From NCBI GenBank assembly GCA_000470535.1, contig CBRG010000154.1, positions 1-64,000 on the forward strand: a stretch of 64,000 nt of DNA, given 5' to 3'. This stretch comes from Streptomyces sp. AW19M42 (GTDB lineage Bacteria; Actinomycetota; Actinomycetes; Streptomycetales; Streptomycetaceae). The position numbers and the translations under genes were made by a program. Below, one piece after another: positions 11,504 through 37,105 of the stretch (position 1 is its first letter; every line of letters starts with the position of its first letter). The notes beneath the pieces were generated by a model. The model was not told the origin of the DNA and did no database searches. It worked only from the letters and a program-made list of their open reading frames with translations.

Positions 11504-11555
11504 GCGCGCGGGAAGCGGTCTGAGGCACGATGAAAGCTGGCTAGACTTCCATCCC

Positions 11556-12812: not shown

Positions 12813-12828
12813 TCCGCAGGGGCCTTCG
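12800..12828. terminator. Bidirectional terminator between convergent defence genes
   Basis: An 11-bp perfect stem (CGAAGGCCCCT and complement) with a 7-base loop overlaps the methyltransferase stop codon and ends 11 bases before the stop of the convergent DUF6339-like gene. It can serve both transcripts. Confidence 0.8.
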
Positions 12829-12839
12829 GGCCGGCCCGG

Positions 12840-13733: not shown

Positions 13734-14722
13734 GCGTCGGTCCCCCGGTCGAGTCGGTCGAGGCCACGGATGGTGGCGGTCAGCGCCTTCGGCACTTCTG
13801 CCCTGCGCGTCGCGGCGTAATGAATGCGCGGCTGGAGGTCGGTCCATCCGGCCGCCCCGGTCCTTCGACCGTGCACTTCCCGGAGCGCGTCCCCCAGCGG
13901 CCGACCGGGCACGACGTCCGGAAGCATCTCGCGGAGCACCTCACCCCGCCAGTCCTGAGGGAAGAGCGGGGCGCCGTCTTCCTCGATCTCCAGATCGCCG
14001 ATCGCCGTGTGGAACACGGCCGTCCACACGTCCGTGCACATCTGGGCCAGGAGCAGGTCCCGGACCAGACTCTCGACCGCCGTGCCGTTGCCGTCGACCA
14101 GTTCGGTGATGCCTTCGAAATCGGTGTTCATGTGCACGGTGGGAACCTCGCCAGAGGTGTCGACGGTCCACGGGACGTCTGCGAAGGGGCGCAGCCACTC
14201 CGGGCCCTCCCGGAACCCGACCTCGGAAACTTCGAGTTCCCGCTCGCGCAGAGGGGCATCGGCCTTCAGGTCGACGATCCAGTCCCGCTCCGACACGGCG
14301 ATCATGCGACCTGGCACTCCGTCGACCGTGGCGATCACGTGGACCGACATCGTCGCGCGGTCGAGATGATCGGCCCGCCAGAGGTCCAGATAGCCGGCCC
14401 ATTCACGGCCGCCCTCGGCGCGAGGCTCCAAACACACGCTGGTGCGTGCGTTGGTGGCTCCTTCGGTGAGTACGACCGCGACCGATACGTCGGACCAGGG
14501 CCCGTCGGGATCCGTCGCGCGTCCGGGCACGACAGCCGTGAGGGTCACCCGGGCTTTCTCCCAGTCGTCCCGCTCAGCCAGCCCCAGGGCAACCACTTGC
14601 TCAACTGTCGAGAAGGTCTTCGTGTCGAGCGGTCCCCGAGCCTCGCCCGGGCCTCGCAGTTCGACCGAGGTGACCCGCAGACTCACTGAGCCGGCAAGCC
14701 GCTTGTACGGATAGCCCCTCAT
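13730..14722 (-). CDS. Unrecognised protein of the reverse defence operon
   Basis: 330 residues from an ATG at 14722 in an ATGA overlap with the XRE-GHKL gene; its own stop overlaps the DUF6339-like start. I do not recognise the family. The N-terminal 200 residues alternate short hydrophobic strands (GSVSLRVTSVELRG, ARVTLTAVVPG, WSDVSVAVVLTEG, TMSVHVIATVDG), suggesting a beta-sandwich. The C-terminal 130 residues look helical (LVRDLLLAQMCTDVWTAVFHTAIGDLE), with the conserved-looking stretch APLFPQDWRGEVLREMLPD. There are no nuclease, ATPase or zinc motifs. Tight coupling on both sides means it is made in step with the ATPase and the DUF6339-like protein, probably as a complex subunit. Confidence 0.8.
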   Translation of the reverse strand: MRGYPYKRLAGSVSLRVTSVELRGPGEARGPLDTKTFSTVEQVVALGLAERDDWEKARVTLTAVVPGRATDPDGPWSDVSVAVVLTEGATNARTSVCLEPRAEGGREWAGYLDLWRADHLDRATMSVHVIATVDGVPGRMIAVSERDWIVDLKADAPLRERELEVSEVGFREGPEWLRPFADVPWTVDTSGEVPTVHMNTDFEGITELVDGNGTAVESLVRDLLLAQMCTDVWTAVFHTAIGDLEIEEDGAPLFPQDWRGEVLREMLPDVVPGRPLGDALREVHGRRTGAAGWTDLQPRIHYAATRRAEVPKALTATIRGLDRLDRGTDA

Positions 14723-16845
14723 GCCCGGCCTCCCTTGTCGGTCCCGAGTTCGACGATCAGCCCCGTGAATACGGCCCTCACGGGGTGCGTCGTCACGTCG
14801 GTCCTCCCTCGGAACGTCGCCTTGCGGGCACCCGGCACGAAGTGCAACACCCCATCCACCACTTCGCAGTTGTGAACAGCAACGAGCTCCGACCACGCCA
14901 GGACGGGGCGCGGCCCCGATCGCACGTCCAGCTTCGCCACGGGACTCGGCCGCGAGGAGTCCGCGCCGGCTGGGACCTTTACCTCACCGGTGACGGACCA
15001 CGCACCGTCGGCATCGACGAAGGCGTCGAGTTCCTCCAACGTCGGGAGCGCCGTCGGGCCGGCGGGTCGGGGGGCTCGCTTGCCACCCAGCGTCAACTTC
15101 TTGCGGAGCCGTTCAGCCCCGCCCGAGCGCTTCGCCTTGGGTAGAGCGACGAGTTCACGCACCGCCTTGTTGGTGTCGGTGGTGAGTTTGGCGATCCGGC
15201 GATACGCGGACGGCGAGTACAGCATCCGAAGTTCCTCCGTCTGCCCCCACTTGTTGTGCTCTGGCGGTTCGGAGGTTCGCAGGAAGACTTCCGCTTCGAC
15301 GGCGCCAGGAGCGTCCTCACCGGCGGCATGACCCGCGAGCAGTACCGCCTGGAAGGGGTTGGTCCCCACGGGCAGATCTCCTACCCGGGCCGTCCTGACG
15401 GTCATACGGTTGCCCCGCATCATGACCACGTGGTTCGGCTTGCCCACGTCGTCGGCCTCCGTCACCAGGACGACAGCCCGGTGTTCGACCTTCTCCTTCC
15501 CCCCGGCGGGGGGAGGCACATTGAGCGTCACGGTCGACATGGCCACCTGGCCGGCCTCGGTCAGCCGGTCCACGGTCGTGCCGTCCAGGAACGCCTGCAG
15601 GGCCCGAGTGCGTGAGGGCTGCGCCGTCCGAGGATCCACCCGTTCCTCCTGGATGATCTCCGCACCATTACGGAGGGTTTTGACGGACGCCTCCAACAGC
15701 GGTCGTCGTGTCTCGCCCACAGTCATGGCCGCCCAGAAGTTGCGGCCGAGGGCCTGGACGAGGCGCTTGTGCATCCGGTGCACGCTGTCGTCGTCCTCGA
15801 TGCCCTTGCTGTCGGCGTCCGGGTCCGCCTCGACGAGGCTCGCCACGTCATGGGCGCCGACGATCAGGAACGACGTGCCCGGCTCGTCACTCTCCCGCGT
15901 GAGGTGGAGACGCTCGACCTTCTCCTCGTCGGCCCACCACGAACGGGCCACGTCCGAGCTGTCCGCGTCCGGATCCGGACGTCCGAACCAGGCGGGGCCG
16001 GCCCAGGCACGGCCGCCCACTTCACGCCAGGGAAGATCGATCCGGCCGATCAGCCGTCGCTCGGTTCGCCCCTCGTGCGGCTCGGAGAGAGTGGAGTTCA
16101 TCAGGACGAGACCGAGGCGACTCGTCGCCCAGAGCGTTGCCTTTCCCAGGCCGTACGAGCCGCCTGCTCCGCTCACCGATTTGTGGCTGTCCAGTTGCCG
16201 ACGCACCACCGCGGCGAATCGACCGGTCTCGTAGTCGTCGCCGGTCAGGCCGGAGGCGTTGTAATCGTCGACCCGCAACAGAACGAGCCGGTCCCGCTCG
16301 TACATGTCACGCAGCCCGGCAGCGATGACCCGCCCGACCTTCTGGTTCTGGGTTGCAGCCGACTCATAGTGCGGAAGGAGTTCGTCCCAACGGATCTCTT
16401 CGCGGAACCGAGCCAGGGGCTCGCCCGTCAACTCGTGCAGCGTGTACCGCACTCGGACCGGCTGCTTACGGTCCAGACGCTCATCGAGGCTGTTCTGCGT
16501 CGCCTCGCGCGCCAACACCTCGACGTCGGCCTCGAAGGCGAAGGCTGCGGCGTTGCCGAAGTCGCGCCCTCCGTCGGCGTATCCGGGGCGGTGGTACCAG
16601 GAGACGGGAAGACCGGCCAGGGTGTCGGCTGTACGGGTGTGGATCGTGCCGAGATCGGTGCCGAGCGCCTCCGCGATCTTGGCGATAGTCTCCTCACGGG
16701 GGGTCGCCCGCCCGGTGATCCAGGCCGATACCGCAGCCCGCGTCATCCCGATGCGCTCGCCGAGGTCAGCCTGGCTCAAGCCCGACTGCTTCAGCTGCCG
16801 GGCGAGCCAGGGCCCGAAATCCATACCGCTGTCCAACGTCACCAC
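14719..16845 (-). CDS. XRE DNA-binding domain fused to a GHKL ATPase
   Basis: Up to 708 residues; starts at 16845 or 16842 (GTG), 16836 (TTG, best placed after GAGGAG) or 16824 (ATG) all keep the domains. Residues 12-65 are an XRE helix-turn-helix (LSQADLGERIGMTRAAVSAW). Then comes a GHKL ATPase: N box REATQNSLDERL (113-124), Mg/ATP loop RVDDYNASGLTG (191-202) and lid GAGGSYGLGKATLWA (226-240). The remaining 450 residues include beta-rich parts and a basic helix (LVALPKAKRSGGAERLRKKL). GHKL ATPases act as ATP-driven clamps (Hsp90, MutL, MORC, gyrase B). A built-in operator-binding domain suggests either autoregulation or sequence-directed loading. It starts the three-gene reverse operon. Confidence 0.88.
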   Translation of the reverse strand: MVTLDSGMDFGPWLARQLKQSGLSQADLGERIGMTRAAVSAWITGRATPREETIAKIAEALGTDLGTIHTRTADTLAGLPVSWYHRPGYADGGRDFGNAAAFAFEADVEVLAREATQNSLDERLDRKQPVRVRYTLHELTGEPLARFREEIRWDELLPHYESAATQNQKVGRVIAAGLRDMYERDRLVLLRVDDYNASGLTGDDYETGRFAAVVRRQLDSHKSVSGAGGSYGLGKATLWATSRLGLVLMNSTLSEPHEGRTERRLIGRIDLPWREVGGRAWAGPAWFGRPDPDADSSDVARSWWADEEKVERLHLTRESDEPGTSFLIVGAHDVASLVEADPDADSKGIEDDDSVHRMHKRLVQALGRNFWAAMTVGETRRPLLEASVKTLRNGAEIIQEERVDPRTAQPSRTRALQAFLDGTTVDRLTEAGQVAMSTVTLNVPPPAGGKEKVEHRAVVLVTEADDVGKPNHVVMMRGNRMTVRTARVGDLPVGTNPFQAVLLAGHAAGEDAPGAVEAEVFLRTSEPPEHNKWGQTEELRMLYSPSAYRRIAKLTTDTNKAVRELVALPKAKRSGGAERLRKKLTLGGKRAPRPAGPTALPTLEELDAFVDADGAWSVTGEVKVPAGADSSRPSPVAKLDVRSGPRPVLAWSELVAVHNCEVVDGVLHFVPGARKATFRGRTDVTTHPVRAVFTGLIVELGTDKGGRA

Positions 16846-17824
16846 TCCTCTGCTACCTGGACGACCGTGGGACTACGGTACAGGGAAATTTGACAGGCCC
16901 CCAGGAGTGACAACGGGGTTTGACACCCCCTCCAGACCCTCTGAACCGTTCATCACTCCCCTGATCCAAATGCGTAACAGGTCCCACAATAGGCGTCGCG
17001 CCCGGCTTGCAACCTCTGCCCACTTGTCCCGAATTACGCCTTCAATGCCGTACGTCAACGGCGTCCTTACATGCCGAAAAGCTCTTGCGGAGAGCCCGAC
17101 GGGACATGTACGTTCGCTGCCGGAAGGGCTCTGATCGGGCTCGGAGAAGCACCCTTTCCCAGGTGCTTAGTTTGCTGCGCTCGAACGCCAACCTCACGTC
17201 CTTATGCAGGATTTCGGCGGGTCGGCGAAACCCTTTGCTCGCACTCAAGAAATGCGGTTTGATCCTCGGCGATATCCGCATCGGATACTCATCTTCTCAG
17301 AAGAAACCTTTCATCCGAACGTGCGCAAATACTCGCGAAGCAAAACCGTGCCCGTACACACAAAATCCCAAGGGGTAAGTCCTACGGACAAGCGCCCGTT
17401 CGGCCCTCATGCCTTCTTCCTCATTCGTGAGTACGACGGCAGGAAGCCGTGGGAGAAGGACAATTTCCTGACAATCACCGGCCTTGAGGCTGCCGACATC
17501 GAACGACTTCGGGCCCTCCAGGACAGCTCTGAGGCCACCCGCGAGTCCTCCCCGGAGGCCCCGCGTCGTCGGCGCCCGCGTTCGCCCCGCCGTCCCCGGG
17601 TGATCGGGAAGCGTCCCGCGAACCGGAGCGACATTCTGTCCGCGGCCCGGAACCGCCGGGCCCGCCGCCCCGTCGTCCTTGTCATCTTCGTCATCGGGCT
17701 GAACTGAACCAGGCGTCCCCCTGGGCATCTGCCACCTATCGTTGAGTTCGTCGGCCGGCCGCACCCCCGCAGCGGCCGGCCCCGCTCCCCCACGTTCATC
17801 TCACGGCCATGAAATGGGATCACC
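16846..17824. promoter_or_regulatory. Divergent control region between the two large defence operons
   Basis: 979 bases separate the GTG of the reverse operon from the TTG of the forward operon. The stretch 16880-17400 is clearly lower in GC than its surroundings and shows no Streptomyces-like third-position bias, so it most likely holds promoters and binding sites for both operons. The XRE domain of the reverse operon's first protein is an obvious candidate regulator. I saw no long palindrome. A possible small gene lies at 17348-17707. Confidence 0.5.
17348..17707 (+). CDS. Possible small protein before the forward defence operon
   Basis: 119 codons from a GTG at 17348 with no clear ribosome site; the frame stays open further upstream but that part lacks coding bias. 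The most protein-like section is FGPHAFFLIREYDGRKPWE followed by FLTITGLEAADIERLRALQ. The C-terminal third is arginine/proline-rich. It ends 117 bases before the GHKL-helicase gene, on the same strand. I do not recognise it. It may be a real small component or regulator, or a chance frame. Confidence 0.3.
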   Translation: MPVHTKSQGVSPTDKRPFGPHAFFLIREYDGRKPWEKDNFLTITGLEAADIERLRALQDSSEATRESSPEAPRRRRPRSPRRPRVIGKRPANRSDILSAARNRRARRPVVLVIFVIGLN

Positions 17825-20800
17825 TTGAACCACAGCGACGTGACGGGTATTTCGGGAGCCCTGCCCGTCATCCAGAAGATTCTCGACCAGTCGATGCGCG
17901 TCCTGGAGACGTACCGTGTGGACCCCGGGTTGATCCTGGAGCATGCCAACGGCGAGCGAAGGATCACTCAAGGCGGTTACGGCGACCGCCAGTTGTTCGA
18001 GCTCGTGCAGAACGCGGCGGACGAGATCGCCTCGGCTCCCGGCGGGAAAGTCCATGTAGTCCTCACCCGGACGCACCTCTACTGCGCCAACGAGGGAAAG
18101 CCTGTCACGCCCGAAGGCGCCGAGACCATTCTCCGTATGAGTGTGTCGAAGAAGCGCGGTGGCCAGATCGGTCGGTTCGGTGTCGGCGTGAAGTCGATCC
18201 TGGCCGTCACGGACACCCCCCAGTTCTTCAGCACTACGGGTGCGTTCGGTTTCGACCGTGTGTGGTCGCACGAGGAAATCAGGAAGGCTCGGGGCACGTC
18301 CGCCGAAGAGGTCTTCGAAGCACCTGTACTGAGGATGGCTCGTCCGCTGGACACCGAGAAGGAGCGGCTGACGGACCCCGTCCTGAACGCTCTGCTCGAC
18401 TGGGCCACGACGGTGGTGCGGCTGCCGCTCCTGCCCGGGGCCGCCGAGCGGCTCGGTCACGACATGCACGACTCCCTGAACAAGGCCGACGAGAAGCGTG
18501 AGTTCCCGGCCAGGTTCCAGCTGTTCTCCCATCACGTCGGGACCGTGATCCTTGAGGACACCCACTCCATGCCGCCGATCCGCCGCGAGATCACGGTCGA
18601 CCACGACGGCTTCTGGCACACGATCCAGGAGTCGCGCACGGGGCGGCCGGAGTCCGGTTCCGCGTGGAAGGTATTCACGCACGCCCACCGACCGTCCGAG
18701 GTCGCTCGCGCCAGCGCGGGCGAGATGCACGACCGGGGCACCATCGACATTTCGTGGGCCGTACCCGAATACACAGGTGAGACGGTGCTCACCACTCCTC
18801 GGGGCCGCGGCGAATTCTGGTCGTTCTTTCCAACGAAGTATCCGATGACGCTGCGAGGCGCGCTGAACGGTGCGTGGAAAACGAACGAGGACCGTCAGAA
18901 CCTCCTGGATTCCAGTCCGTTCAACCAGGAAATCATTCGTGTCGCCGCCCGTCTCGTGGTCGACTCCCTGCCGCACCTCGCCCCTTCCCAGGACCCGGCC
19001 GCCTATCTCCCGTTGCTCCCGGGCCGGACCAAGGAATCGGAGACCCTGAACTGGGCGGACAAATACCTGACGGAACAGATCTGGAAGCTGGCGGCCGAAC
19101 ATCCTTCGCTTCCCGACCAGGAGGGTGTGCTGCGGGTCCCCCGTGACATTCACGTACACCCCGCGCCGCACAACAAGGTGCCGCTCAAACAGGAATGGCT
19201 CCACATGTGGAGCGCATGTCCAGGTCGGCCATCGGACTGGATCCACCCCTCCGTCGAAGCCGCGGAGTTCCGCGCCGGCAAGGTCGGGCACATCCTGGAG
19301 GAGACCAAGCAGCGACGCGCGACCGTCCGGGAGTGGCTGGAAGCGCTGGTGACCGAGGAAACGGTCGAGGCCTCCGCCGTCGCGATCCGCATCCTCGCTG
19401 CCATGATCCGCGAGTCCTCCCCCTTCGCTATCGAGGCGCGGACGGCCCGCATCGTGCTGACCGAGGAGAGCGGACTGGTGGCCCCCGTGGTGGGCAAGGT
19501 CTACCGTCGAACCGTTCAGGACGGACTGCGCGACGGCACGACCTACGTCGACCCGAGGCTGTCGGAGGACGAGTCGCTGATCAGCGACCTCAACGAGATC
19601 GGCATTCGCGAGGCCGACCCCCGAGGTCGATTCATCGGTGTGCTGGAGCAGGGGATCGAGAACTACGGCCCCCAGGACTGGACACGCTTCTGGGAGCTTT
19701 TCCACAGCGCCGGTGGCAGCCGGGTCAGCGGTGAGGTCACCGCCCGTGTGCCGGACCCGCTGGGGAGTCTGCACGTGCGCACCGTCGGCGGACGGTTCCA
19801 CCGGATGCGGGAGTGCCTCCTGCCCGGCCCCGTGGTACCGGGCGACGGTTCCCGGGACTCGTCGATCGCCGTGGATCCGTCCTTCCACTCGGACGACCTG
19901 CATGTCCTGCGCGAGTTCGGCATGCGGGACAGGCCCACCCACGGGCACAGGCCGACGAACGAGTCATGGTTCGAGGACTACCGCGCCGCGATCTACGACA
20001 GCTACTGCAAGACGTTGAGCAGCAACGCCGCACGCCCCAGCCTGGCACGGATCAAACTGGAGGGCTCCCCGGTCGGCGGCCCCCTGCACCTTCTGGAACT
20101 GCTCTCGGAAGAGGGGAGAGCGGCTTTCGTCAAGGCGCTGCCCGACGACAGCGTCATCGACACCTGGACCCTGCAGGTGGGTGTCCAGGCCTCGACGCGC
20201 AAGGTGATCCACTCGCCGCTGCGCTGGATGCTGCGCCGTCACGGACGCGTGGCGACCTCACAGGGCGTCGTCCCGATCGCCGGTGCCGTCGGCCCGCAGC
20301 TCCAGGCGTACGCGGATGTTCTTCCCGTGGCCGACATCAGTGCGGAGAAGGCGCGCAAACTCCACCTTCCCGTGCTGGTCGACGAGGTCCCCACCAAGCA
20401 GTGGGAGCGCCTACTCGAACAGCTCCGGGGCAGCGACGACGACGTCTTCGTCGGGCGCACCTACGTGATGTTGACCCGCCTCGAAGTGGACTTCCCGGAT
20501 CAACTCACCCGCTGCCGTGTGGGAGCGGAGTGGGCTGCCCGCGAGGACAACGAGATCGCCGTGGCGGCGACCGGGGCCGAGTACCGCGCACTGCGCGCCG
20601 AGCAGATCCCGGCGTTGTTGGCCGGTGGGCCGGAGGACGCGGCGCTGCTGGTCAAGACATGGGGGATGCTGCGCTACGCCGACGTCATAAGCAAGGAGAT
20701 CCGGCACGTCGGGGTCGGTGAGCCCGTCCTCCTGCAGGACGAGTTCCCCACGCTTCGCCAGCGGCTGGGCCCTGCCGTGAACAACCATCGTCTGCTGCGC

Positions 20801-22591
20801 TGTTCGGAGCTGGAGGAGGTGGTCCGGACACCCCAGGGTTCCACCACGACCCCACTCGACAGTGCGTTGCAGGGCACGACCGTACTGGTGCTGGACTCCG
20901 CGGATCGCCTGGCGACGCTGGTCGCCGCTGATCGCGAACTGCGGTGGGGGCTGGAGGAGTCGGGGTGTCGAGCGGTCCTGGAGGCGCAGACGCGCCAGGA
21001 GGCGGACCAGGAACTCCAGGCATCTCTGCGCCGTGTCCGGCAGGCGAGCAGCGTCGAGGAGAAGTTGGAGCTGCTCATCGGTGCGGCCGCACTCCGTGCC
21101 GGCCTCCCCCCGGGCCTGTTGGAGAGCGAACCGTCCGAACCGGGAGGCGGCGAGCCGTCCCCGCGTCGCATCGCTCGCCTGGCCTACAACGCCCACGGCG
21201 ACGGTGTGCTCCAGGTGCACGCACGGGACCTGCAGGCCGCCTATCCGAGTCATGCCCCGTCCAGCTTCGCCGGGGCGTCACCCGCCGTGAAGTTCGTCTC
21301 GGAGTTCGGTTTCCCCGACTCCTTCGCCGGCGCGCGGACGCCCTCGCTGCCTCCCAGGATCGAGATCCCTGGCCCGTCGGAGTTCCCACGCCTGCATGAC
21401 TATCAGGAGCGTCTCGCGGCCAAGGTCTTCGCTATGCTCGATCGCTTCACCCCGCAGCGCGGCATGCTCTCCCTGCCCACCGGGGCGGGCAAGACGCGTG
21501 TGGCGGCGGAGGCCGTCATCCGCTGGATCAAACAGGTGGGCGAGCTGAGTGGCCCCATTCTCTGGATCGCCCAGACCGAGGAACTCTGCGAACAGGCCGT
21601 GCAGAGCTGGAGCTTCGTCTGGTCGAAGGTGGGCGCGGAGACTCCTCTGGCGATCAGCAGGCTGTGGACGACCAACGAGGCCGGCCCCGTCGCCGACCGT
21701 CCTCACCTCGTCGTCGCCACGGACGCCAAACTTCGTAACTGCCTGGACACCGAGAGCTATGCCTGGCTCCGGAATGCCAGCCTGGTCATCGTCGACGAAG
21801 CCCATGTCGCCATCTCTCCCCAGTACACGGAGATCCTCACTCAACTCGGCCTCACGGCCTACGAGACGCGACGCCACCTGCTGGGACTCACAGCCACACC
21901 GTTCCGGAACACGAACGACGCGGAGACCAAGCGCCTCGTCCAGCGCTTCGGGGCCCAGCGCCTCGACGACGGTGTCTTTCCGTCGGACGATCCGTACGGG
22001 GAGCTCCAGGAACTCGGCATGCTCGCGAAGGTTACGCACCGGGAGCTGCTCGGCGGCACGATCGAACTGACCCAGGACGAGAAGACACGCGCCGATCAAA
22101 TGAGTCTTCTCTCCAAAGCCGCGGAGCAACGCCTGGCCGACGACCAGGACCGCAACAAGCGCATCCTCGATGAGATCGGAGCCATGCCGGACGACTGGCC
22201 CGTCCTGGTCTTCGCCACGTCCGTCGCTCACGCCAAGTTCCTGGCCGCGAAGCTCAAGGGCCACGGCATCACCGCGGCTTCGGTGGACTCGGCCACGTCC
22301 ACGGGCGAGCGCAGGCGGAGCATCGACGACTTCCGGCGCGGTCGCGTCCGAGTGCTGACGAACTACGGCGTCCTGACGCAGGGCTTCGACGCACCGGCGA
22401 CCAGGGCGGTCGTGATCACACGTCCGACGTACAGCCCGAACGTCTACCAACAGATGATCGGTCGCGGACTCCGTGGCCCCGGCAACGGCGGCAAGGAAAC
22501 ATGCCTGATCCTCAACGTGCGCGACAACATCACGAACTACGACAAGGCCCTCGCCTTCACTCAGTTCGAGCACCTGTGGAGGGCCCAGTGA
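17825..22591 (+). CDS. Sacsin-type GHKL ATPase fused to an SF2 (DEAD/DEAH) helicase
   Basis: 1588 residues from a TTG at 17825. Residues 45-130 form a sacsin-like GHKL domain: GGYGDRQLFELVQNAADEI (50-68), YCANEGKPVTPEGAETI, and the lid KKRGGQIGRFGVGVKSIL. Residues about 200-1190 are a long region without motifs I know. The C-terminal 400 residues are an SF2 helicase: LHDYQERLAAKVF (Q-like), LPTGAGKT (1217-1224), VDEAH (1323-1327), GLTATPF, SVDSATSTGERRRSIDDF, VLTQGFDAPATRAVV and QMIGRGLRGPG. The family resembles type I/III restriction translocases. The stop overlaps the UvrD-like gene by GTGA. Coupling an ATP clamp to a DNA motor in one chain suggests entry on unmodified or foreign DNA followed by translocation; this is inference. 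Confidence 0.9.
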   Translation: MNHSDVTGISGALPVIQKILDQSMRVLETYRVDPGLILEHANGERRITQGGYGDRQLFELVQNAADEIASAPGGKVHVVLTRTHLYCANEGKPVTPEGAETILRMSVSKKRGGQIGRFGVGVKSILAVTDTPQFFSTTGAFGFDRVWSHEEIRKARGTSAEEVFEAPVLRMARPLDTEKERLTDPVLNALLDWATTVVRLPLLPGAAERLGHDMHDSLNKADEKREFPARFQLFSHHVGTVILEDTHSMPPIRREITVDHDGFWHTIQESRTGRPESGSAWKVFTHAHRPSEVARASAGEMHDRGTIDISWAVPEYTGETVLTTPRGRGEFWSFFPTKYPMTLRGALNGAWKTNEDRQNLLDSSPFNQEIIRVAARLVVDSLPHLAPSQDPAAYLPLLPGRTKESETLNWADKYLTEQIWKLAAEHPSLPDQEGVLRVPRDIHVHPAPHNKVPLKQEWLHMWSACPGRPSDWIHPSVEAAEFRAGKVGHILEETKQRRATVREWLEALVTEETVEASAVAIRILAAMIRESSPFAIEARTARIVLTEESGLVAPVVGKVYRRTVQDGLRDGTTYVDPRLSEDESLISDLNEIGIREADPRGRFIGVLEQGIENYGPQDWTRFWELFHSAGGSRVSGEVTARVPDPLGSLHVRTVGGRFHRMRECLLPGPVVPGDGSRDSSIAVDPSFHSDDLHVLREFGMRDRPTHGHRPTNESWFEDYRAAIYDSYCKTLSSNAARPSLARIKLEGSPVGGPLHLLELLSEEGRAAFVKALPDDSVIDTWTLQVGVQASTRKVIHSPLRWMLRRHGRVATSQGVVPIAGAVGPQLQAYADVLPVADISAEKARKLHLPVLVDEVPTKQWERLLEQLRGSDDDVFVGRTYVMLTRLEVDFPDQLTRCRVGAEWAAREDNEIAVAATGAEYRALRAEQIPALLAGGPEDAALLVKTWGMLRYADVISKEIRHVGVGEPVLLQDEFPTLRQRLGPAVNNHRLLRCSELEEVVRTPQGSTTTPLDSALQGTTVLVLDSADRLATLVAADRELRWGLEESGCRAVLEAQTRQEADQELQASLRRVRQASSVEEKLELLIGAAALRAGLPPGLLESEPSEPGGGEPSPRRIARLAYNAHGDGVLQVHARDLQAAYPSHAPSSFAGASPAVKFVSEFGFPDSFAGARTPSLPPRIEIPGPSEFPRLHDYQERLAAKVFAMLDRFTPQRGMLSLPTGAGKTRVAAEAVIRWIKQVGELSGPILWIAQTEELCEQAVQSWSFVWSKVGAETPLAISRLWTTNEAGPVADRPHLVVATDAKLRNCLDTESYAWLRNASLVIVDEAHVAISPQYTEILTQLGLTAYETRRHLLGLTATPFRNTNDAETKRLVQRFGAQRLDDGVFPSDDPYGELQELGMLAKVTHRELLGGTIELTQDEKTRADQMSLLSKAAEQRLADDQDRNKRILDEIGAMPDDWPVLVFATSVAHAKFLAAKLKGHGITAASVDSATSTGERRRSIDDFRRGRVRVLTNYGVLTQGFDAPATRAVVITRPTYSPNVYQQMIGRGLRGPGNGGKETCLILNVRDNITNYDKALAFTQFEHLWRAQ

Positions 22592-24501
22592 CCGACGCGT
22601 ACCTCGACAGCCCGCCCCTCACCGAGGAACAGCAGGCCGTGGTCGACCAGCCCTGGGACACCCGGCTACTGGTGACGGCGGGCGCCGGCGCCGGTAAGAC
22701 GCACACACTCGTCCGCAGGCTCGACGCGCTCCTGAGCGACGAGGAGGAAGCACTCGAAGCACGCGAGATCCTGGTCCTCAGCTTCTCCAGGGCCGCCGTA
22801 CGGGAACTGCGGGAGCGGATCGCTCTTCATTCCCGTGAGGCACGCCGGGTCAGGGTGCAGACCTTCGACTCCTGGGCCTACGCGCTCCTGCGCGGCGAGC
22901 AGCCCGACCGGGACTGGAGCGCGCTGCGCTTCGACGAGAGGATCGGCGGGGCCACGGAGGCGATCCTGCGTGGCGCGGTCGAGGACAGTGAGCCCGGCCC
23001 GCCGGCCCACGTGGTGATCGACGAGGTCCAGGACCTGGTGGGTGACCGTCGGGACATGGTGGAGACCCTGCTCGACCGGTTCCAGGACAGCTGCGGTTTC
23101 ACCGTGGTCGGAGACGGCGCTCAGGCGATCTTCGGGTTCCAGGTGGCGGACGAGGATGCCCGCGCCGCGGAAACGAACTACTTCTTCGACTGGCTGCGAG
23201 CGTCATACCCGGACGATCTCGTGGAGCTCCACCTCTCCGCCAACTTCCGCGCACGCACCGACGAGGCGGGGGTCGCGCTGCCCCTCGGCCCCGCGCTCCA
23301 GCGTCTGCCGTCGGAAAGCGCAGCCTCGGACGCCGCTGGGGAGGCCGCCTACCGAGACCTCACCGACCTGCTCCGGGTCTGCCCCTCGTTCGGTGCCGTC
23401 ACCGACGTGTTCATGCTCGACTCGTTGAGAGACTTCCGAGGTACGTGCGCGATCCTCTGCCGGGACAACCGCCAGGCTCTGGTGCTGGCGGAGACGCTGT
23501 TCTCCCACGGCGTGCACCACCGGCTGCAGCGCGATCTCCAGGACCGCCCGGTGCCTGCCTGGGTGGCCTCGGTACTTCGTGGCACCGGATCGACCACGCT
23601 GACGGAGGAGCGTTTCCAGGATCTGCTCGTCTCCGGGTCGCTCTCCCCCGTCGGAGATCGCGCAAGGGTATGGCGGTCGCTGCGCGGCGCGGCGCGAGCG
23701 CCCCGGGGACACATGGATGTGTCCGCTGTGCGGCAGGCCGTGGTCCAGGGCAGATTTCCCGACGACCTGGCAGCGGTCGAGCCGGCCGATCTCGTGGTGT
23801 CGACCGTCCACAGGGCCAAGGGACTCGAATTCGATCGCGTGATCGTGGTCGAGCCGGCCTTGTTGGCCGAGCTCCGAAAGCAACACACCCATATCGATCC
23901 TGCGGCAGAGGTCCGCGCGCTCTACGTCGCGATGACTCGTCCCAGGGACGATCTGTTCCGCGTCGACGCGCCGGACACCGCCCTGATCCGCAGGGACCAC
24001 AGCACCGGGCGCCACTACGCGGGTGGTTGGAAGGCCTACCAGCGCTACGGGATCTCGGCCGCTTCCCTGGACGTTTCCCGCGAACACCCGCCGGGCACCG
24101 ACGGCTTCGCGTGCGACGCCGGGGCTCTGCAGGATTACCTCGCCTCCTCGGTCTCGCCGGGGGATGCCTTGGAACTGCGCCTTCAGCACGAAATGACCAT
24201 GGCCGCGGATCAGAGCCCGCCGTACACGGTGTTCCACCGGGACCGCCCTGTCGCCGTCGTCTCGGAGAGGTTCCGACACGACCTGCACACCTCACTCAAG
24301 ATCAACAAAACCTGGGACATCAGCTGGCCGACGAGCATCGAAGGGTTCCGGGTCGACTGTCTGGAAAGCGTGGCAGGCAGTACGGCCTCCGGCGCCCGTG
24401 CAGGGCTCGGTGAACACGGGCTCTGGATGGTGCCTCGCATGTCAGGGATCGGTCGCTACAGGTGGACCAGCAGGAACACGCAGGAGGACATCGCCCGATG
24501 A
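22588..24501 (+). CDS. UvrD/PcrA-like SF1 helicase
   Basis: 637 residues from the GTG of a GTGA overlap. SF1A motifs in order: LTEEQQAVVD (Q motif), TAGAGAGKTHTLVRR (Walker A, 30-44), VLSFSRAAVRELRERI (Ia), VQTFDSWAYALL, VIDEVQDLVGDRR (II), VVGDGAQAIFGF (III), LSANFRA (IV), VSTVHRAKGLEFDRVIVV (V) and LYVAMTRPRDDLF (VI). The last 150 residues have no nuclease motif and are not family-typical, perhaps for partner binding. At 637 residues it is slightly short for UvrD. It unwinds DNA 3' to 5' by family precedent. It sits inside the forward operon and is coupled to drmA. Confidence 0.92.
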   Translation: MTDAYLDSPPLTEEQQAVVDQPWDTRLLVTAGAGAGKTHTLVRRLDALLSDEEEALEAREILVLSFSRAAVRELRERIALHSREARRVRVQTFDSWAYALLRGEQPDRDWSALRFDERIGGATEAILRGAVEDSEPGPPAHVVIDEVQDLVGDRRDMVETLLDRFQDSCGFTVVGDGAQAIFGFQVADEDARAAETNYFFDWLRASYPDDLVELHLSANFRARTDEAGVALPLGPALQRLPSESAASDAAGEAAYRDLTDLLRVCPSFGAVTDVFMLDSLRDFRGTCAILCRDNRQALVLAETLFSHGVHHRLQRDLQDRPVPAWVASVLRGTGSTTLTEERFQDLLVSGSLSPVGDRARVWRSLRGAARAPRGHMDVSAVRQAVVQGRFPDDLAAVEPADLVVSTVHRAKGLEFDRVIVVEPALLAELRKQHTHIDPAAEVRALYVAMTRPRDDLFRVDAPDTALIRRDHSTGRHYAGGWKAYQRYGISAASLDVSREHPPGTDGFACDAGALQDYLASSVSPGDALELRLQHEMTMAADQSPPYTVFHRDRPVAVVSERFRHDLHTSLKINKTWDISWPTSIEGFRVDCLESVAGSTASGARAGLGEHGLWMVPRMSGIGRYRWTSRNTQEDIAR

Positions 24502-27500
24502 AGGACGAATCGAACCCGCACGCCGCCCACTACGTGGCGCGCCAGGCACTTGTCGATCAACTTCGCCGAGACCTTCTCGGCCCAGGCTCCCCCGACGAGG
24601 TCCTGAAGCAGGACCCACCGATCACGGCCTATCCCATCGGGGTGTTGTTCCCCCGGCCTTCCGACGAGAAGGCCAGACGTGCCCTGGAGGAAGACGCGGA
24701 CGAGATCGAAGGCTTGGACGACGCCCCCCTCGTGCGGGGGCGTCGGGACCTCGAGGAGTCGGCTCCGGATACCGGCGCCTCGCTCGCCGGTGACCGTCGA
24801 CCGTCCTCCATGGGACTGACATTCGCCGTCGACCCCACCGTCTCGTCGACCATCGTCGTGCACACGGAGGCCGCGATGTACGACCCCGTCGATCCCGACG
24901 GGCGTCCGATCCCCGCCAAACGGGCCGAGGCCCGCAGCACCTCCGATCAGAAGGAACACTGGCGTCGCCGGGTCCTGGACCTGCGCCCCGTGACCATAGA
25001 CGTGACGGTGCCGGAACGACACCGGCCCGCACCCCTGCACGACGGTGTGAGCGTCGAGATCCTCGTGCGTCCGCCGGCTGCCGGTACGGTCACGGTCACG
25101 GTCACCCTGATCAACACACACTCGGTGGGCGAACGAGAGCTTCAGGACGCGCACGCTCTCTACCAGCCCCGTCTCACCGTGACGACTCCGTCGGGAGCGC
25201 CCGCCTTCGTCGAGCGCCCCGCCGGCGGGCGAGCGGTCGACGGAGAAGTGGCCACGAGCAGACTGCTCCACCGGCACGCCCCCACTTTCGCCATGGGCCA
25301 CGGCTGTGCGGCGGAGTGGGATTGGACTCCGCCGCCCATCGGCGCGCCCAACAACGCACGCGCCTCGATCGCCGGCGTGCGGACCGAGTTCGTACCGACC
25401 CACGACGTGTTGCTGACCGACTCGAACCCTGACATCGACGACTCCGCCCTCACGATGCACGGTCTGGCGACCCGGCCGGAGAGCGACGTCCTGGCGTCAT
25501 TGAACGAACTGATGGCTGGGTACGCGGAGTGGATCGATCGCAAGGAGACGGAGGCCGAGTCCTTCCGCGGCACTCCGCACGAAGCTCCGGCGCGGGCACA
25601 GATCGAGCAGTGTCGTACCGCCCTCGGCCGGATGCGTCGGGGCATCCGGGTGCTCGGTGAGAACTCCGACGCATTGCACGCGTTCCGACTGGCCAATCGC
25701 GCGATGGCTCACCAGCGCGCCCGAAGCGAGTGGGTGCGGAACGGACGTGATGGAACCCCGGACGAGACGGTCGGACGCTGGCGTCCGTTCCAGATCTCCT
25801 TCGTGCTGCTCTGCCTCGAAGGGATCGTGGACCCCCACCATGAGGACCGAGCAGTCGCCGACCTGTTGTGGTTCCCGACCGGTGGGGGGAAGACGGAGGC
25901 GTATCTGGGCCTCATCGCCTTCACCACGTTCTTTCGGCGTCTGCGCCTCAAGGAGCACGGAACCGGCGTCACCGTCCTCATGCGCTACACACTGAGGTTG
26001 CTCACGTTGCAGCAGTTCGAGCGTGCTGCCGCCCTCATCTGCGCCATGGAGCGCATCCGACTCGGCTCTGTGGAGACGCTCGGTGCGGAGCCCATCTCCA
26101 TCGGCATGTGGGTCGGCCAGTCCGCCACTCCCAACCGGCTGTCGGACGCCGAGAAGAGTCTGGTCGAGCTGCGCAAGGAGAAGGAACTGCAGGAGAAGAA
26201 CCCGGTTCAGCTGCACGCCTGCCCCTGGTGCGGAACCCGTCTCGACGCCTATCAGTACGAGGTGGACGAGGAGGCCAAGCGGATGTACATCCGCTGCCCC
26301 GACACCTGGTGCGACTTCCGCGACGGTCTACCGGTCCACCTTGTCGACGAAGCCGTCTACGATGCCCGTCCGACGCTGGTGATCGCCACGGTCGACAAGT
26401 TCGCCGCGATGCCGTGGCGCGCGCAGACCGCCGCTCTGTTCAACCGGGACCGAGAGGACCGCACTCCTCCCCCGGAGCTGATCGTCCAGGACGAACTGCA
26501 TCTCATCTCGGGCCCACTCGGCACCCTCACCGGCCTCTACGAGACAGCCGTGGATCTGTTGGCCGACAGCCCGAAGGTCATTGCCTCGACTGCGACGATC
26601 CGCCGCGCTTCCGATCAGGGACGACAGCTCTTCGATCGCACGGTCGCGCAGTTCCCGCCGGCGGGGATCGACGCCCGGGACTCCTGGTTCGCCGTGGAGA
26701 CCCCGAAGGAGCGCAAGGCGACACGTCAATACGTCGGTCTGCTCACCCCGAGCACCAGCCAGTCGACGCTCCTCATCCGCACCTATGCGAATCTCCTTCA
26801 CCGCGCGGCGCGCACCGACACCACGGAAAACGTGCGGGACGCCTACTGGACGCTCGTCGGGTACTTCAACAGCCTTCGGCTGCTCGCCGCCGCCGAGCTC
26901 CAGGTGCATGACGACGTCGATTCCTACCTCGGGTATCTGGCCTCGCGCGACGAATGTCCACAGCGAAAGGTACTGGAGCAGACCGAGCTGACGAGCCGAG
27001 CCAACTCCAGCGAGATCCCGAAACGTCTCAAGCAGGTGGAGAAGCGGCTACCCGATCCCGATGCCGTGGACGTCCTCCTGGCCACCAACATGATCTCCGT
27101 GGGCGTCGACGTGGATCGGCTCGGGTTGATGGCGGTCATGGGTCAGCCGCAGACCACGGCCGAGTACATTCAGGCGACAAGCCGCGTCGGCCGACGTCAT
27201 CCCGGACTTGTCGCCGTGATGTTGAACTCCTCGCGCTCCAGGGACCGTTCTCACTACGAGAGCTTCCAGCACTTCCATTCGGCGCTGTACCGAGAAGTCG
27301 AATCGACCAGCGTGACGCCCTTCTCGTCCCGGGCGCGTGACAGAGGGCTGCACGCGGTGGTGGTCGCACTCGCGCGCATTTTGATTCCGGAGGCGCGCGA
27401 GAACGACGGAGCGGGCCGGATCCACCAGTTCCGCGCCGAACTGGAAGAGGTCGTTCGGACCGCGCTCCTCGCCCGTGTCCAGTCCGTCGCCCCGGACGAG

Positions 27501-27716
27501 TACCGCGCCACCGCAGATGCCTTCGACGAATTCGTCGACTGGTGGGCCGAAGAGGCCGACATACACGGCGGCCTCCTCTACGAGCCGAAACGGGGAAAGA
27601 AGACACCGTCCCTGTTGCATGCATTCGACAACGAGAACGAAGACGCGTGGCCCACACTGTGGAGTCTGCGCGATGTCGACGCCGAGTCCGCCCTGTTCAT
27701 GGAGGCATCCCGATGA
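24498..27716 (+). CDS. drmA: DISARM-type helicase DrmA
   Basis: 1072 residues from the ATG of an ATGA overlap. The N-terminal 440 residues include ARQALVDQLRRDLLGPGSP and TAYPIGVLFPR, seen at the start of DrmA-like proteins. The SF2 core has LWFPTGGGKTEAYLGL (Walker A near 462-466), DELHLISGPLG (II, near 665), ASTATIRRA (III) and IQATSRVGRRHPG (VI, near 890). A zinc-finger-like insert, HACPWCGTRLD with a later CPDTWC, lies between Walker A and B. DrmA with DrmB forms the core DISARM complex that binds and moves along foreign DNA. The usual DISARM neighbours drmC, drmD and drmE are missing here; a UvrD-like helicase and a GHKL-helicase precede it instead. Confidence 0.9.
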   Translation: MKDESNPHAAHYVARQALVDQLRRDLLGPGSPDEVLKQDPPITAYPIGVLFPRPSDEKARRALEEDADEIEGLDDAPLVRGRRDLEESAPDTGASLAGDRRPSSMGLTFAVDPTVSSTIVVHTEAAMYDPVDPDGRPIPAKRAEARSTSDQKEHWRRRVLDLRPVTIDVTVPERHRPAPLHDGVSVEILVRPPAAGTVTVTVTLINTHSVGERELQDAHALYQPRLTVTTPSGAPAFVERPAGGRAVDGEVATSRLLHRHAPTFAMGHGCAAEWDWTPPPIGAPNNARASIAGVRTEFVPTHDVLLTDSNPDIDDSALTMHGLATRPESDVLASLNELMAGYAEWIDRKETEAESFRGTPHEAPARAQIEQCRTALGRMRRGIRVLGENSDALHAFRLANRAMAHQRARSEWVRNGRDGTPDETVGRWRPFQISFVLLCLEGIVDPHHEDRAVADLLWFPTGGGKTEAYLGLIAFTTFFRRLRLKEHGTGVTVLMRYTLRLLTLQQFERAAALICAMERIRLGSVETLGAEPISIGMWVGQSATPNRLSDAEKSLVELRKEKELQEKNPVQLHACPWCGTRLDAYQYEVDEEAKRMYIRCPDTWCDFRDGLPVHLVDEAVYDARPTLVIATVDKFAAMPWRAQTAALFNRDREDRTPPPELIVQDELHLISGPLGTLTGLYETAVDLLADSPKVIASTATIRRASDQGRQLFDRTVAQFPPAGIDARDSWFAVETPKERKATRQYVGLLTPSTSQSTLLIRTYANLLHRAARTDTTENVRDAYWTLVGYFNSLRLLAAAELQVHDDVDSYLGYLASRDECPQRKVLEQTELTSRANSSEIPKRLKQVEKRLPDPDAVDVLLATNMISVGVDVDRLGLMAVMGQPQTTAEYIQATSRVGRRHPGLVAVMLNSSRSRDRSHYESFQHFHSALYREVESTSVTPFSSRARDRGLHAVVVALARILIPEARENDGAGRIHQFRAELEEVVRTALLARVQSVAPDEYRATADAFDEFVDWWAEEADIHGGLLYEPKRGKKTPSLLHAFDNENEDAWPTLWSLRDVDAESALFMEASR

Positions 27717-29548
27717 CCCCGCCCCCCTCACGCCGTCGCCGGGCCGGCGCTCCCGAACGCAGCTACCCGCGCCGAGGTTCGGTGCGTCGTGCCCAAATGA
27801 TCACCACGTACGGCGTGGGATCCATCATCGCCGTCGACAACGAATCGTTCATGGTGAGCGGCACCGATTCGTGGAACATCAGTGAGGCACCGACCGTCCA
27901 CGAACACCGACTGGCACGTGTGCTCGGCGTGAAGTCGTTTCGTCTCCCGCCGGCCTCCGACGACACCAGCAAGGACGGGGTCCGTGTTCGGCGCTTCCCG
28001 CTGTGGCATTCCTGCCCGGGGTGCGACGCCCTGCAGCACGTGAGCCGGTTCAACTCTCCCCCGGGTAGGAACGAGTGCGGTGAATGCGCCGAGGAACTGG
28101 TGCCGTCGCGTTTCGTCATGGCGTGCGCCAAGGGCCACATCGAGGACTTCCCGTACTGGAAATGGGCCCACCGCCACAACCGCCAGAACGCCGATACAGG
28201 GCTGTGCGGCGGAGAGATGCGGCTGCGCACCAGCGGAAAGACCGCCTCGCTCCGGTCGATTCTCATCTCCTGTACCTGCGGAATCCCGGATGTCTCGATG
28301 GAGGGGGCTTTCCGCCGCGCCGCCCTTTCGGACCTGAAGGTCTTCTGCGGCGGTCGGCGCCCTTGGCTCAAGGATGCGCCCACCGAGCGCTGCTCGGAGA
28401 AGCCGCGCACCCTCCAGCGTGGTTCGTCCGTCGCCTGGCAGCCCATCGTGAAGACGGCCCTCTCGATCCCGCCCTGGAGCGATGGGCACGCCGCCCGGCT
28501 GGAACTGCACTGGGACGCTCTTCGTGAGATGGCGAGCAACCGCGATGCGATAGAGGTATATCTGAAGGCTCTGACGCTGCAGGAGAACTACGAGTTCTCT
28601 GTCGACAAGGTCACTGCCCTCCTGGAGGCGGAGAACCAAGAGGACTACGAGCCGAACGAGGACAAGGGAACCGACAGCGCCTACGTCGCCCTGCGCAAGC
28701 AGGAGTACGAGCGACTCATCGCCGGTCGTCTCGAGAACGAGACCGATCACGAGGACCAATTCGTCTGCGAACCTCCTCGGTCGCCGGCTGCCGTTCTTTC
28801 CCCCTACGGCGTGACGGGCCCGATGCTCGTGAAGCGATTGCGCGAAGTGCGCGCACTGAAATCCTTCTCTCGGGTGGACACCCCCGAGACACGCACCGAC
28901 GTCCACGAGGCCGCGCTGTCTCTGTCCCCCATGGACTGGCTCCCGGCGATGGAGGTGCAGGGCGAAGGCGTCTTCCTGCGCCTGGACGAGCACCGTCTCG
29001 ACGACTGGGCACGAACTGCCGCCGTCGCCGCCCGAGCGGACCGCATCCGGACGAACCACCTGCGCATGCTTGCAGAGCGCGCCAACGACCCGGCGTCCGT
29101 GCCAAATTCGCCCGCTGACGCCCGCATGGTGCTCCTGCACACCTTGTCGCATGCACTCATTAACGAATGGAGCCTCGACGGGGGGTATCCGGCAGCTTCG
29201 CTCCGGGAACGGTTGTACGCGGACGAGTCGATGGCCGGCATCCTGATATGCACCGCCACCAGCGACTCCGCCGGAAGCCTGGGCGGCCTGGTCGCCCAGG
29301 GCGAGCCGGATCGCCTGGAGCGCGCTCTCCATTCGGCTCTCCTCAGGGCGCAGTGGTGTTCGGCCGACCCGCTCTGCGTCGAGTCCCGAGAAAGCGGCGT
29401 GGGCGGAATCAACCTCGCCGCATGTCATGCGTGCGTCCTGCTGCCCGAGACCAGCTGCGAGCACAACAACGGACTGCTCGACCGAGCGTTGCTCATCGGG
29501 ACACCTGAGGACCCGGCGATCGGCTTCTTCAGCGAGGCACTGCGGTGA
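27713..29548 (+). CDS. drmB: DrmB (DUF1998) protein
   Basis: 611 residues from the ATG of an ATGA overlap with drmA. The N-terminus has the DrmB entry motif SVRRAQMITTYGVGSIIAVD. A zinc ribbon follows (SCPGCDALQHV with NECGECAEEL), then MACAKGHIEDFPYW and further cysteines (SCTCGIPD). The DUF1998 part shows LLHTLSHALINEWSL, and the end carries CHACVLLPETSCEHNNGLL. In DISARM, DrmB complexes with DrmA and stimulates it. It is the last gene of the four-gene forward operon; 11 bases separate its stop from that of the convergent ATPase gene, with no terminator hairpin evident. Confidence 0.9.
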   Translation: MTPPPSRRRRAGAPERSYPRRGSVRRAQMITTYGVGSIIAVDNESFMVSGTDSWNISEAPTVHEHRLARVLGVKSFRLPPASDDTSKDGVRVRRFPLWHSCPGCDALQHVSRFNSPPGRNECGECAEELVPSRFVMACAKGHIEDFPYWKWAHRHNRQNADTGLCGGEMRLRTSGKTASLRSILISCTCGIPDVSMEGAFRRAALSDLKVFCGGRRPWLKDAPTERCSEKPRTLQRGSSVAWQPIVKTALSIPPWSDGHAARLELHWDALREMASNRDAIEVYLKALTLQENYEFSVDKVTALLEAENQEDYEPNEDKGTDSAYVALRKQEYERLIAGRLENETDHEDQFVCEPPRSPAAVLSPYGVTGPMLVKRLREVRALKSFSRVDTPETRTDVHEAALSLSPMDWLPAMEVQGEGVFLRLDEHRLDDWARTAAVAARADRIRTNHLRMLAERANDPASVPNSPADARMVLLHTLSHALINEWSLDGGYPAASLRERLYADESMAGILICTATSDSAGSLGGLVAQGEPDRLERALHSALLRAQWCSADPLCVESRESGVGGINLAACHACVLLPETSCEHNNGLLDRALLIGTPEDPAIGFFSEALR

Positions 29549-36548: not shown

Positions 36549-36554
36549 TATAGT
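36549..36554 (+). promoter_or_regulatory. Possible -10 element for the tRNA-like gene
   Basis: TATAGT stands out in this GC-rich stretch 47 bases before the tRNA-like structure. No good -35 match is seen about 17 bases further upstream. Confidence 0.35.
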
Positions 36555-36600
36555 TGATCTTGAGGTCGCGGACCGTTTCGGCGGTGCGACTGCCTCCTGT

Positions 36601-36670
36601 GCGTTGGTCGTCCAAGGAAGGACGCCCCGCTTCCTGCGGGGAGATGCAGGTGCGAGGCCTGCCCAGCGCT
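36601..36670 (+). tRNA. Compact tRNA-like structure, tRNA-Gly(UCC)-like
   Basis: A 70-base cloverleaf can be drawn by hand: acceptor GCGTTGG (36601-36607) pairs with CCAGCGC (36663-36669, one G-U); U8; D stem GTCC/GGAC with loop AAGGAA; anticodon stem CCCCG/CGGGG with loop CTTCCTG (anticodon UCC at 36632-36634); variable loop AGAT; T stem GCAGG/CCTGC with loop TGCGAGG. It keeps U8, A14, A15-U48, G18, G19, A21, G53-C61, T54, C56 and A58. Odd points: a six-base D loop, G at position 55 instead of U, U at 37, and no encoded CCA. C32 and G38 could pair and close the loop. It is either a divergent tRNA or a tRNA-derived RNA. Confidence 0.55.
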
Positions 36671-36678
36671 CCGCCTGA

Positions 36679-36710
36679 GGCCCCGTTCCTGCTACGGCAG
36701 TAGCGGGGCC
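36679..36710 (+). terminator. Hairpin just after the tRNA-like structure
   Basis: GGCCCCG and CGGGGCC enclose an inner CTGC-TACG-GCAG stem. It begins 8 bases after the tRNA-like 3' end and suits a terminator for that small transcript. Confidence 0.6.
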
Positions 36711-37105
36711 TTACGCATGGGGTTCTGCCGGTCCGTGCTCCGGATGACGAGTGAGCCAGGAACCGGCTGGGTCCGTTTCGGTGTGTACGTCGTCGCGGAG
36801 TCAATGTGGCCGAGCACGGTTCGCCTCCGGCCACCGGCATCTCCGTTGGATGCGAACAAGACAGCGCAGATGCGGGCCGCCCGGGCGGATAGCGGCCGAG
36901 GGCCCCTCGTCCGGTGGTACTTCCGATCGCTCGCACTCGCCTGCGGGATCATCTGCTTGAGACGACTCCGGGCATCGTGCTGAAACGATCAGTACGAACG
37001 ACTCCGGCCGAGCCCACTCCATGGTGATCGGAACTCAGGGAGACCACGAAACCGGTCGGCCCCCAACACCCCGCCCAGGTAGGCATTTTCGAAGAACAGT
37101 GCCTG
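36711..37105. other. Stretch with no supported gene
   Basis: Short frames exist on both strands (for example plus 36717-36983), but their sequences are arginine-rich, lack ribosome sites and look like chance frames. Nothing else is seen apart from the terminator that follows. Confidence 0.5.

Follow-up and report, generated by a model that had tools for sequence, protein, structure and literature searches.

Staphylococcus aureus carries tRNA-Gly(UCC) genes with low tRNA scores and altered D and T loops; the one that has been studied is charged, binds EF-Tu poorly and serves pentaglycine synthesis (PMC8007984, PMC4052509). An A51-U63 pair is reported in the weakly EF-Tu-binding tRNA-Gly of this bacterium, and FemX and VanK of Streptomyces coelicolor are named as users of aminoacyl-tRNA (PMC4052509). 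The pseudo-tRNA tRNA-Other of Bacillus cereus is a precedent for a tRNA-like gene outside translation that can act in regulation (PMC3399842), whereas the accessory tRNA-Asp(AUC) encoded in streptomycete chromosome arms decodes (PMC9262613).

The gene analyzed here, a 70-nt cloverleaf at positions 36601-36670 (plus strand) of a 64,000-nucleotide stretch of DNA from Streptomyces sp. AW19M42 (hereafter, the window), shares features with each of these systems. Like the non-proteinogenic tRNA-Gly(UCC) of Staphylococcus, as described in the cited papers, it combines a low tRNA score, a UCC anticodon and altered loops with an A51-U63 pair (A-U in 105 of the 112 distinct versions of the element that we compared) and, by prediction, acceptance of glycine. 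However, the replacement of G18G19 by UU or CU in the staphylococcal tRNAs is not found in the element, where G18 is present in 112 and G19 in 111 of the 112 versions, and the staphylococcal combination of A49-U65 with A51-U63 is only half reproduced, position 49-65 being G-C in 112/112. In this comparison, made by description, the six-base D loop, the many mobile copies, and the 6-nt and 4-nt anticodon loops are seen in the element only. The B. cereus tRNA-Other is similarly a tRNA-like, non-translational gene in accessory DNA but has a Trp anticodon, occupies a single locus, is part of a longer RNA and is poorly aminoacylated in vitro (PMC3399842). The tRNA-Asp(AUC) is likewise an accessory Streptomyces tRNA of variable regions; unlike what is proposed for the element family, it decodes, with a readable anticodon, and it is rare (32/4649 genomes; PMC9262613).

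ARAGORN calls a tRNA-Gly(tcc) at 36601-36672 and no other tRNA in the window. The cloverleaf, which is also supported by the alignment of 27 copies, pair counts and the fold, consists of a 7-bp acceptor stem (36601-36607/36663-36669), a D arm (36610-36623), an anticodon arm (36625-36641) with the loop CUUCCUG, a T arm (36646-36662) with the loop UGCGAGG, and U73 (36670), all on the plus strand. It is followed by CCG (36671-36673), where CCA is encoded in 65 of 124 distinct copies and absent from the other 59; a CCA-adding enzyme could supply the unencoded CCA. The initial annotation had drawn the 7-bp acceptor, U8, A14, A15, G18G19, G53-C61, U54 and A58, and had singled out the six-base D loop, G55 and U37 as oddities. 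The sequence and the alignment of 27 copies bear out all of these features and also show C56, and comparison with homologs supports the proposed resemblance to tRNA-Gly(UCC). A covariance score, suggested as a check, came out differently: the Rfam tRNA model (RF00005) sees the window copy at background, with nothing at gathering score within the window and nothing up to E = 10 within the 501 bases around the copy, which is also absent from the 70 RF00005 matches of its own genome (lowest match, 15.8 bits). No family of Rfam 15 reaches gathering score in the window; the weak match with the lowest E-value is skipping-rope (19.6 bits vs 36.7).

A DNA search produced matches in 24 of 100 genomes, its own included; 21 of these carry the element, and the remaining three (G035, G065 and G081) contain only short, 22-32-base matches. 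Sequence identity ranges from 75% to 95%, mostly 87-95%, most matches end at the edges of the tRNA part, and mean column identity across 27 aligned copies is 97%. A covariance model (R1) was built from these 27 copies, which are of type A only (see below), so that other types may be missed, all the more in the large searches that used stricter filters. Against its own genome, R1 scores the window element at 100.1 bits and the next match at 16.9; in a lax search of ten genomes, everything listed besides this element and one 47.7-bit tRNA-Gly falls at 15-29 bits. At E <= 1e-5, R1 matches 226 of 392 Streptomyces genomes, leaving 166 without a match. Recheck of 32 lower-scoring genomes revealed six with only other tRNA genes (G206, G244, G270, G278, G343 and G359; for G278 and G359, the verdict is based on the score and on an adjacent tRNA-Gly call) and one with a truncated copy, so that about 220 of the 392 remain. 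Across the order, at E <= 1e-10, 201 of 391 genomes match, all in one of the ten genera, Streptomyces, and 190 do not. A class-wide sample searched at E <= 1e-5 yielded 26 of 296 genomes, 16 of them Streptomyces, with the other ten at 37-41 bits; the seven readable ones among these ten are ordinary tRNA-Arg(UCU). The largest number of matches in one genome is nine (G260).

An exact pattern retrieved at least 80 named records, and among the matches listed, all are from Streptomyces save one from Actinacidiphila. Seventy plasmid records match, 68 of them from Streptomyces and two from Streptantibioticus. The PLSDB feature table was considered as proof of missing annotation and dropped because it comes without RNA genes. 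Phage origin was considered as well and rejected, with no match in 50,697 phage records nor in viral contigs, the latter searched by exact pattern only. The copies are intergenic and lie at many unrelated sites, on both chromosomes and plasmids. On 29 selected linear chromosomes, 24 of 49 copies fall within the outer 10% on each side, compared to 9.8 expected, a count that treats copies as independent and takes in terminal-repeat duplicates and two decayed copies. Twelve pairs of copies from the same genome were compared: in 11, the likeness begins 41-77 bases ahead of the tRNA part; in ten, it extends at least 28 bases past it, to about where the terminator ends; and in one, it is confined to the tRNA part. 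In G016, G020 and G003, the unit occupies one conserved site, downstream of the same gene. In two relatives with an empty site (G017 and G007), the flank matches are 43 and 25 bases apart, compared to about 220 in G016, and several other relatives have different sequence at this site; by eye, no target-site duplications were seen in this comparison. Judging by these sequence comparisons, the window element is one copy of a widespread, mobile Streptomyces RNA gene family.

At six loci (L204, L205, L206, L057, L286 and L325), two or three complete units in the same orientation are spaced 1.1-2.1 kb apart, with one or two genes between them. Reading these arrays as cassettes was rejected, given that the intervening genes differ by locus and each unit is complete in itself.

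Base pairing is preserved across the family. In the alignment of 27 copies, 95.8% of the cells are paired vs 94.5% in shuffles, and four pairs are changed on both sides vs 1.6; among the 112 distinct versions, the respective values are 95.3% vs 88.8% and eight vs 4.9. Thus, the covariation among homologs that the initial annotation had proposed to look for is present, with compensatory pairs in both sets. Outside the 112 lie L130, L227, the truncated L154 and L237, and the relatives L226 and L229; decayed copies were left out, such as L227, in which the acceptor stem no longer pairs properly. Position 13-22 is a C-A mismatch in 98 of the 112 versions, so that the D stem usually comprises three pairs; in the window copy, this pair is restored by G22.

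The versions fall into three types that differ in the anticodon loop. Type A, to which the window copy belongs, accounts for 84 of the 112 and has a 7-nt loop, CUUCCUG or a close variant; one type A copy (L192) has a short variable loop. The other 28 versions form two subfamilies that lack a 7-nt loop; theirs has 6 nt, or else 4 nt above a stem lengthened to 6 bp. In type B (22 versions), there are six loop bases, e.g., CAACCG, the outer pair of which can close to leave 4 nt, and in type C (six versions), the loop is CUCCAA or close to it; removal of base 34 from CUUCCAA, the loop of the ordinary tRNA-Gly(UCC) of the AW19M42 genome, would give CUCCAA. None of the type B and C copies examined is called as tRNA-Gly by ARAGORN. 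The window copy folds with a minimum free energy of -40.7 kcal/mol (z -4.4), equaled by 0 of 200 shuffles, and four other copies (types A, B, B and C) fold more weakly, with z from -1.5 to -2.4 and 4 to 21 of 200 shuffles equally good. Complementarity between the D loop and the anticodon loop (AGGAA/UUCCU) in type A was considered and rejected as a family feature, since it is not kept in types B and C. When the copies were read genome by genome, none of 18 multi-copy genomes mixed types, compared to 10.7 expected, which could reflect amplification within lineages, gene conversion or a fit between the type and a partner. Same-genome copies of one type are found at different sites in, e.g., G390, G214, G038 and G058.

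Each copy looks like a transcription unit of its own. The TATAGT that the initial annotation placed upstream is present at 36549-36554 (plus strand), and a TANNNT box at a like distance is found in 152 of 157 distinct units vs 23 expected from shuffles; most commonly, the putative -10 box starts 47 nt before the tRNA 5' end (60/115 units). If there is a -35 box, it is a weak one. A conserved GATCTT (36556-36561, plus strand) marks the presumed transcription start. Within 60 bases upstream, GATC occurs in 144 of 157 units vs 28 in shuffles, and GATCWT occurs in 99; in an anchored profile of 129 units, GATC mostly follows the -10 box directly. GATCWT is the binding site of the nucleoid protein Gbn (PMC9239103), which the window motif fits, and Gbn might be tied to the element. 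From the promoter position, positions 36562-36600 (plus strand) would constitute a 5' leader, presumably removed by RNase P; copies in one genome have similar leaders. The terminator proposed downstream corresponds to a strong, intrinsic-terminator-like hairpin at about 36676-36713 (plus strand), followed by only a short T run; the 36671-36720 segment folds at -33.8 kcal/mol (z -5.3). A 3' hairpin below -12 kcal/mol is found in 124 of 124 distinct units, and none of the 157 distinct units with context overlaps a gene predicted by the simple codon-usage script that we employed.

The bacterial glycine identity set comprises G1-C72, C2-G71, G3-C70, U73, C35 and C36 (PMC9976931, Table 1). All nine nucleotides are invariant in 112 of 112 distinct versions of the element, although much of both ends and the T arm was fixed in the search pattern, which allowed five substitutions, so that the invariance of these parts is in some measure built into the search. 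The free gap of the pattern contains C35 and C36; in versions with 16-nt anticodon arms, the gap was placed to align CC, and no row was dropped for want of CC. Altogether, 30 of the 70 positions are invariant, and all nine identity nucleotides would fall among these by chance with a probability of about 2e-4, assuming independence. In the anticodon loop, C35 and C36 are the sole invariant bases, base 34 or 37 being deleted in 28 of the 112 versions. G55 replaces the usual U55 in 112/112, so that the U54-U55-C56 of a translational tRNA is not found. Because the identity nucleotides are kept while two subfamilies have lost the 7-nt loop, selection appears to maintain charging by glycyl-tRNA synthetase rather than decoding. 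The AW19M42 genome also encodes ordinary tRNA-Gly for UCC, GCC and CCC, and thus, the element is not needed for decoding. A duplicate glycyl-tRNA synthetase (GlyRS) serving as a dedicated enzyme was considered and rejected: each of 24 genomes, of which 12 carry the element and 12 lack it, has one GlyRS gene, so no special synthetase is seen.

A candidate parent is the second tRNA-Gly(UCC) of the AW19M42 genome (UCC-2; G000:C172:11545-11617, minus strand; L082:1654-1726), which lies outside the window, next to a tRNA-Gly(GCC), and is matched in 121 of 121 Streptomyces genomes sampled. Among four tRNA-Gly of this genome that were compared, UCC-2 is the nearest to the element, with 47 of 74 aligned columns identical, compared to 41-43 of 73-78 for the others. 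ARAGORN misses it in L082, and the Rfam tRNA model gives it 53.5 bits. Its T arm, GCAGUGUGCAAUUCCUGU, contains the stem and the UGCAA loop start of the element plus one extra U. UCC-2 shares with the element the GUGC T-arm motif with G55, the T-stem bases, U73 and CUUCC; unlike the element, it has a seven-base D loop, a 7-nt anticodon loop (CUUCCAG) and a T-stem bulge, and is a core gene detected by Rfam. Staphylococcal tRNA-Gly also carry GUGC in the T arm. UCC-2 would seem to be a core tRNA-Gly with a non-ribosomal use, perhaps by FemX, and the element would seem to be its mobile descendant, with a modest margin of identity. Two more divergent tRNA-Gly(UCC)-like relatives, L226 (G172:C41:16945-17019) and L229 (G112:C253:14556-14628), have longer D loops and the T loops UGCGAGC and UGCAAGU, respectively; they are possible links between UCC-2 and the element.

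No recurring partner gene was found when the ORFs within about 8 kb of the element at 39 loci were compared all against all. Around the 157 distinct units, 282 proteins within 600 bases form 182 clusters without a recurring family; the largest cluster, of ten proteins, appears to represent one conserved site. Pfam and PADLOC searches of 125 of the 182 cluster representatives similarly found nothing that recurs (commonest Pfam family, 5/125): no toxin or nuclease, with GNAT domains in only two of the 125, and no biosynthetic gene recurs beside the element, and no mobility genes were seen there. FemAB family genes are present in 24 of 24 genomes, with no difference in copy number between the 12 with the element (43 HMM pieces) and the 12 without it (40). 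In the window itself, about 7 kb before the element, a defence island (10571-29545) encodes two type II-like DNA methyltransferases, a TmtA-like protein, a UvrD-like helicase, DrmA and DrmB, and resembles a DISARM-type system. A plasmid of Streptomyces coeruleorubidus (NZ_CP137525.1) carries an element copy and, about 160 bases past it on the opposite strand, a tRNA-Asp(AUC) (L067:6231-6307).

The explanation that we favor, with moderate confidence, is that the element is a mobile, glycine-charged, non-decoding tRNA that likely donates glycine to a non-ribosomal acceptor. The family would descend from a tRNA-Gly(UCC) and would spread in Streptomyces as an independently transcribed unit. Transcription would begin at the unit's -10 promoter and stop at its terminator; the RNA would be trimmed to the tRNA-like body and, judging from the kept identity nucleotides, charged with glycine by the ordinary synthetase. 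Types B and C, with no 7-nt anticodon loop, are placed outside decoding by their sequence; G55, U37 and shared ancestry suggest the same for type A. Donation of glycine to a non-ribosomal acceptor, as by the staphylococcal cell-wall tRNA-Gly and with a FemX-type ligase as the foremost candidate, is the most likely next step and the least certain one. This scheme is supported by the promoter-like and terminator-like signals in nearly every copy, by the nearest tRNA of the same genome being a core tRNA-Gly(UCC) with the same GUGC motif, by the occurrence of FemAB family genes in all 24 genomes, by the invariance of G55 and by A51-U63, the pair reported in the weakly EF-Tu-binding tRNA-Gly of S. 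aureus. Against it, type A, the commonest type, might decode with the UCC in its 7-nt loop; the element retains G18 and G19, in whose place the S. aureus cell-wall tRNAs have other bases, and 49-65 is G-C; FemAB counts do not differ between the 12 genomes with and the 12 without the element; no neighbor family recurs; and 59 of 124 copies lack CCA. Because about half of the sampled genomes have no match, no essential cell-wall task depends on the element. The initial annotation had considered a non-translational role, comparing the RNA to tRNA-Gly species that feed peptide or cell-wall synthesis. The former part gains from the loss of the 7-nt loop in types B and C with glycine identity kept; the latter finds no support in the FemAB counts, which do not differ, or in the neighbors, among which no biosynthetic gene recurs.

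The same features have to be weighed under other explanations. The element could be a decoy or sponge, a tRNA-Gly mimic that binds a protein with tRNA-Gly or its glycylated form as substrate, such as a glycyl-tRNA-acetylating GNAT toxin, a tRNA nuclease or GlyRS, and thereby protects the cell or plasmid or tunes charging. An accessory, multi-copy, mobile distribution, with 70 plasmid records and enrichment at chromosome ends (24/49 vs 9.8 expected), would suit such a role equally well, as would the single type per genome (18/18 multi-copy genomes, where 10.7 would be expected to be mixed), which looks like a fit to a partner specific to the lineage. TacT, a GNAT toxin, recognizes U73 and G71 (PMC9976931), both invariant in the element. 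Given, however, that no toxin or nuclease recurs nearby (GNAT in 2/125 neighbors) and that retention of C35 and C36 alongside U73 is not required of a decoy, we consider this unlikely. Phages and islands carry tRNAs, and an extra translational tRNA-Gly(UCC) might help mobile DNA to translate GGA and GGG codons. Type A has a 7-nt loop with UCC and U33, CCA is encoded in 65 of 124 copies, and decoding is documented for the accessory tRNA-Asp(AUC) found in streptomycete chromosome arms (PMC9262613), a gene of this type, matched to the published one by anticodon only, being located about 160 bases beyond one plasmid copy of the element. Yet types B and C, a quarter of the set (28/112 versions), cannot present a normal anticodon, G55 is found in 112/112, the Rfam tRNA model is blank for the window copy and the AW19M42 genome has all glycine tRNAs, which makes a decoding role rather improbable.

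The many unrelated sites, the relatives with an element-free site and a resemblance between same-genome copies that is limited roughly to the stretch bounded by the -10 box and the terminator are what a selfish, SINE-like tRNA-derived element, kept by its own spread more than by host use, would produce. For a mere passenger, though, invariant identity nucleotides in the compared versions would be needless, and the tRNA part shows 97% column identity and compensatory changes while the leader and terminator drift; with mobility genes and target duplications not seen either, this interpretation is highly unlikely. Least probable of all appears to be a regulatory small RNA in which the CC loop pairs with mRNAs or tRNA-sensing leaders. 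CC is indeed the sole invariant part of the loop, and the B. cereus pseudo-tRNA provides a precedent (PMC3399842), but the acceptor end, the discriminator and the T loop are just as invariant, and loop length and the bases flanking CC differ among types.

Among the papers listed from an open-access library, none describes this family. Non-ribosomal and pseudo-tRNAs are a known kind; what we rate as new is that the family is mobile and that the anticodon loop has been lost while glycine identity persists. Tentatively, and going by sequence, the family members may be dedicated glycyl carriers, or glycyl-tRNA decoys, that descend from a core non-ribosomal tRNA-Gly that has gone unrecognised and have spread via plasmids and chromosome arms. 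Tools for tRNA detection miss such genes or file them as ordinary tRNA-Gly. If the favored explanation is correct, a charged, non-decoding tRNA is encoded by mobile genes in roughly half of the Streptomyces genomes sampled, and a core Streptomyces tRNA-Gly with the same odd T arm would be the likely parent. The natural series of 7-, 6- and 4-nt loops would then provide a measure of what GlyRS needs from the anticodon, and the setting aside of aminoacyl-tRNAs for non-ribosomal use would become testable in an antibiotic-producing genus.
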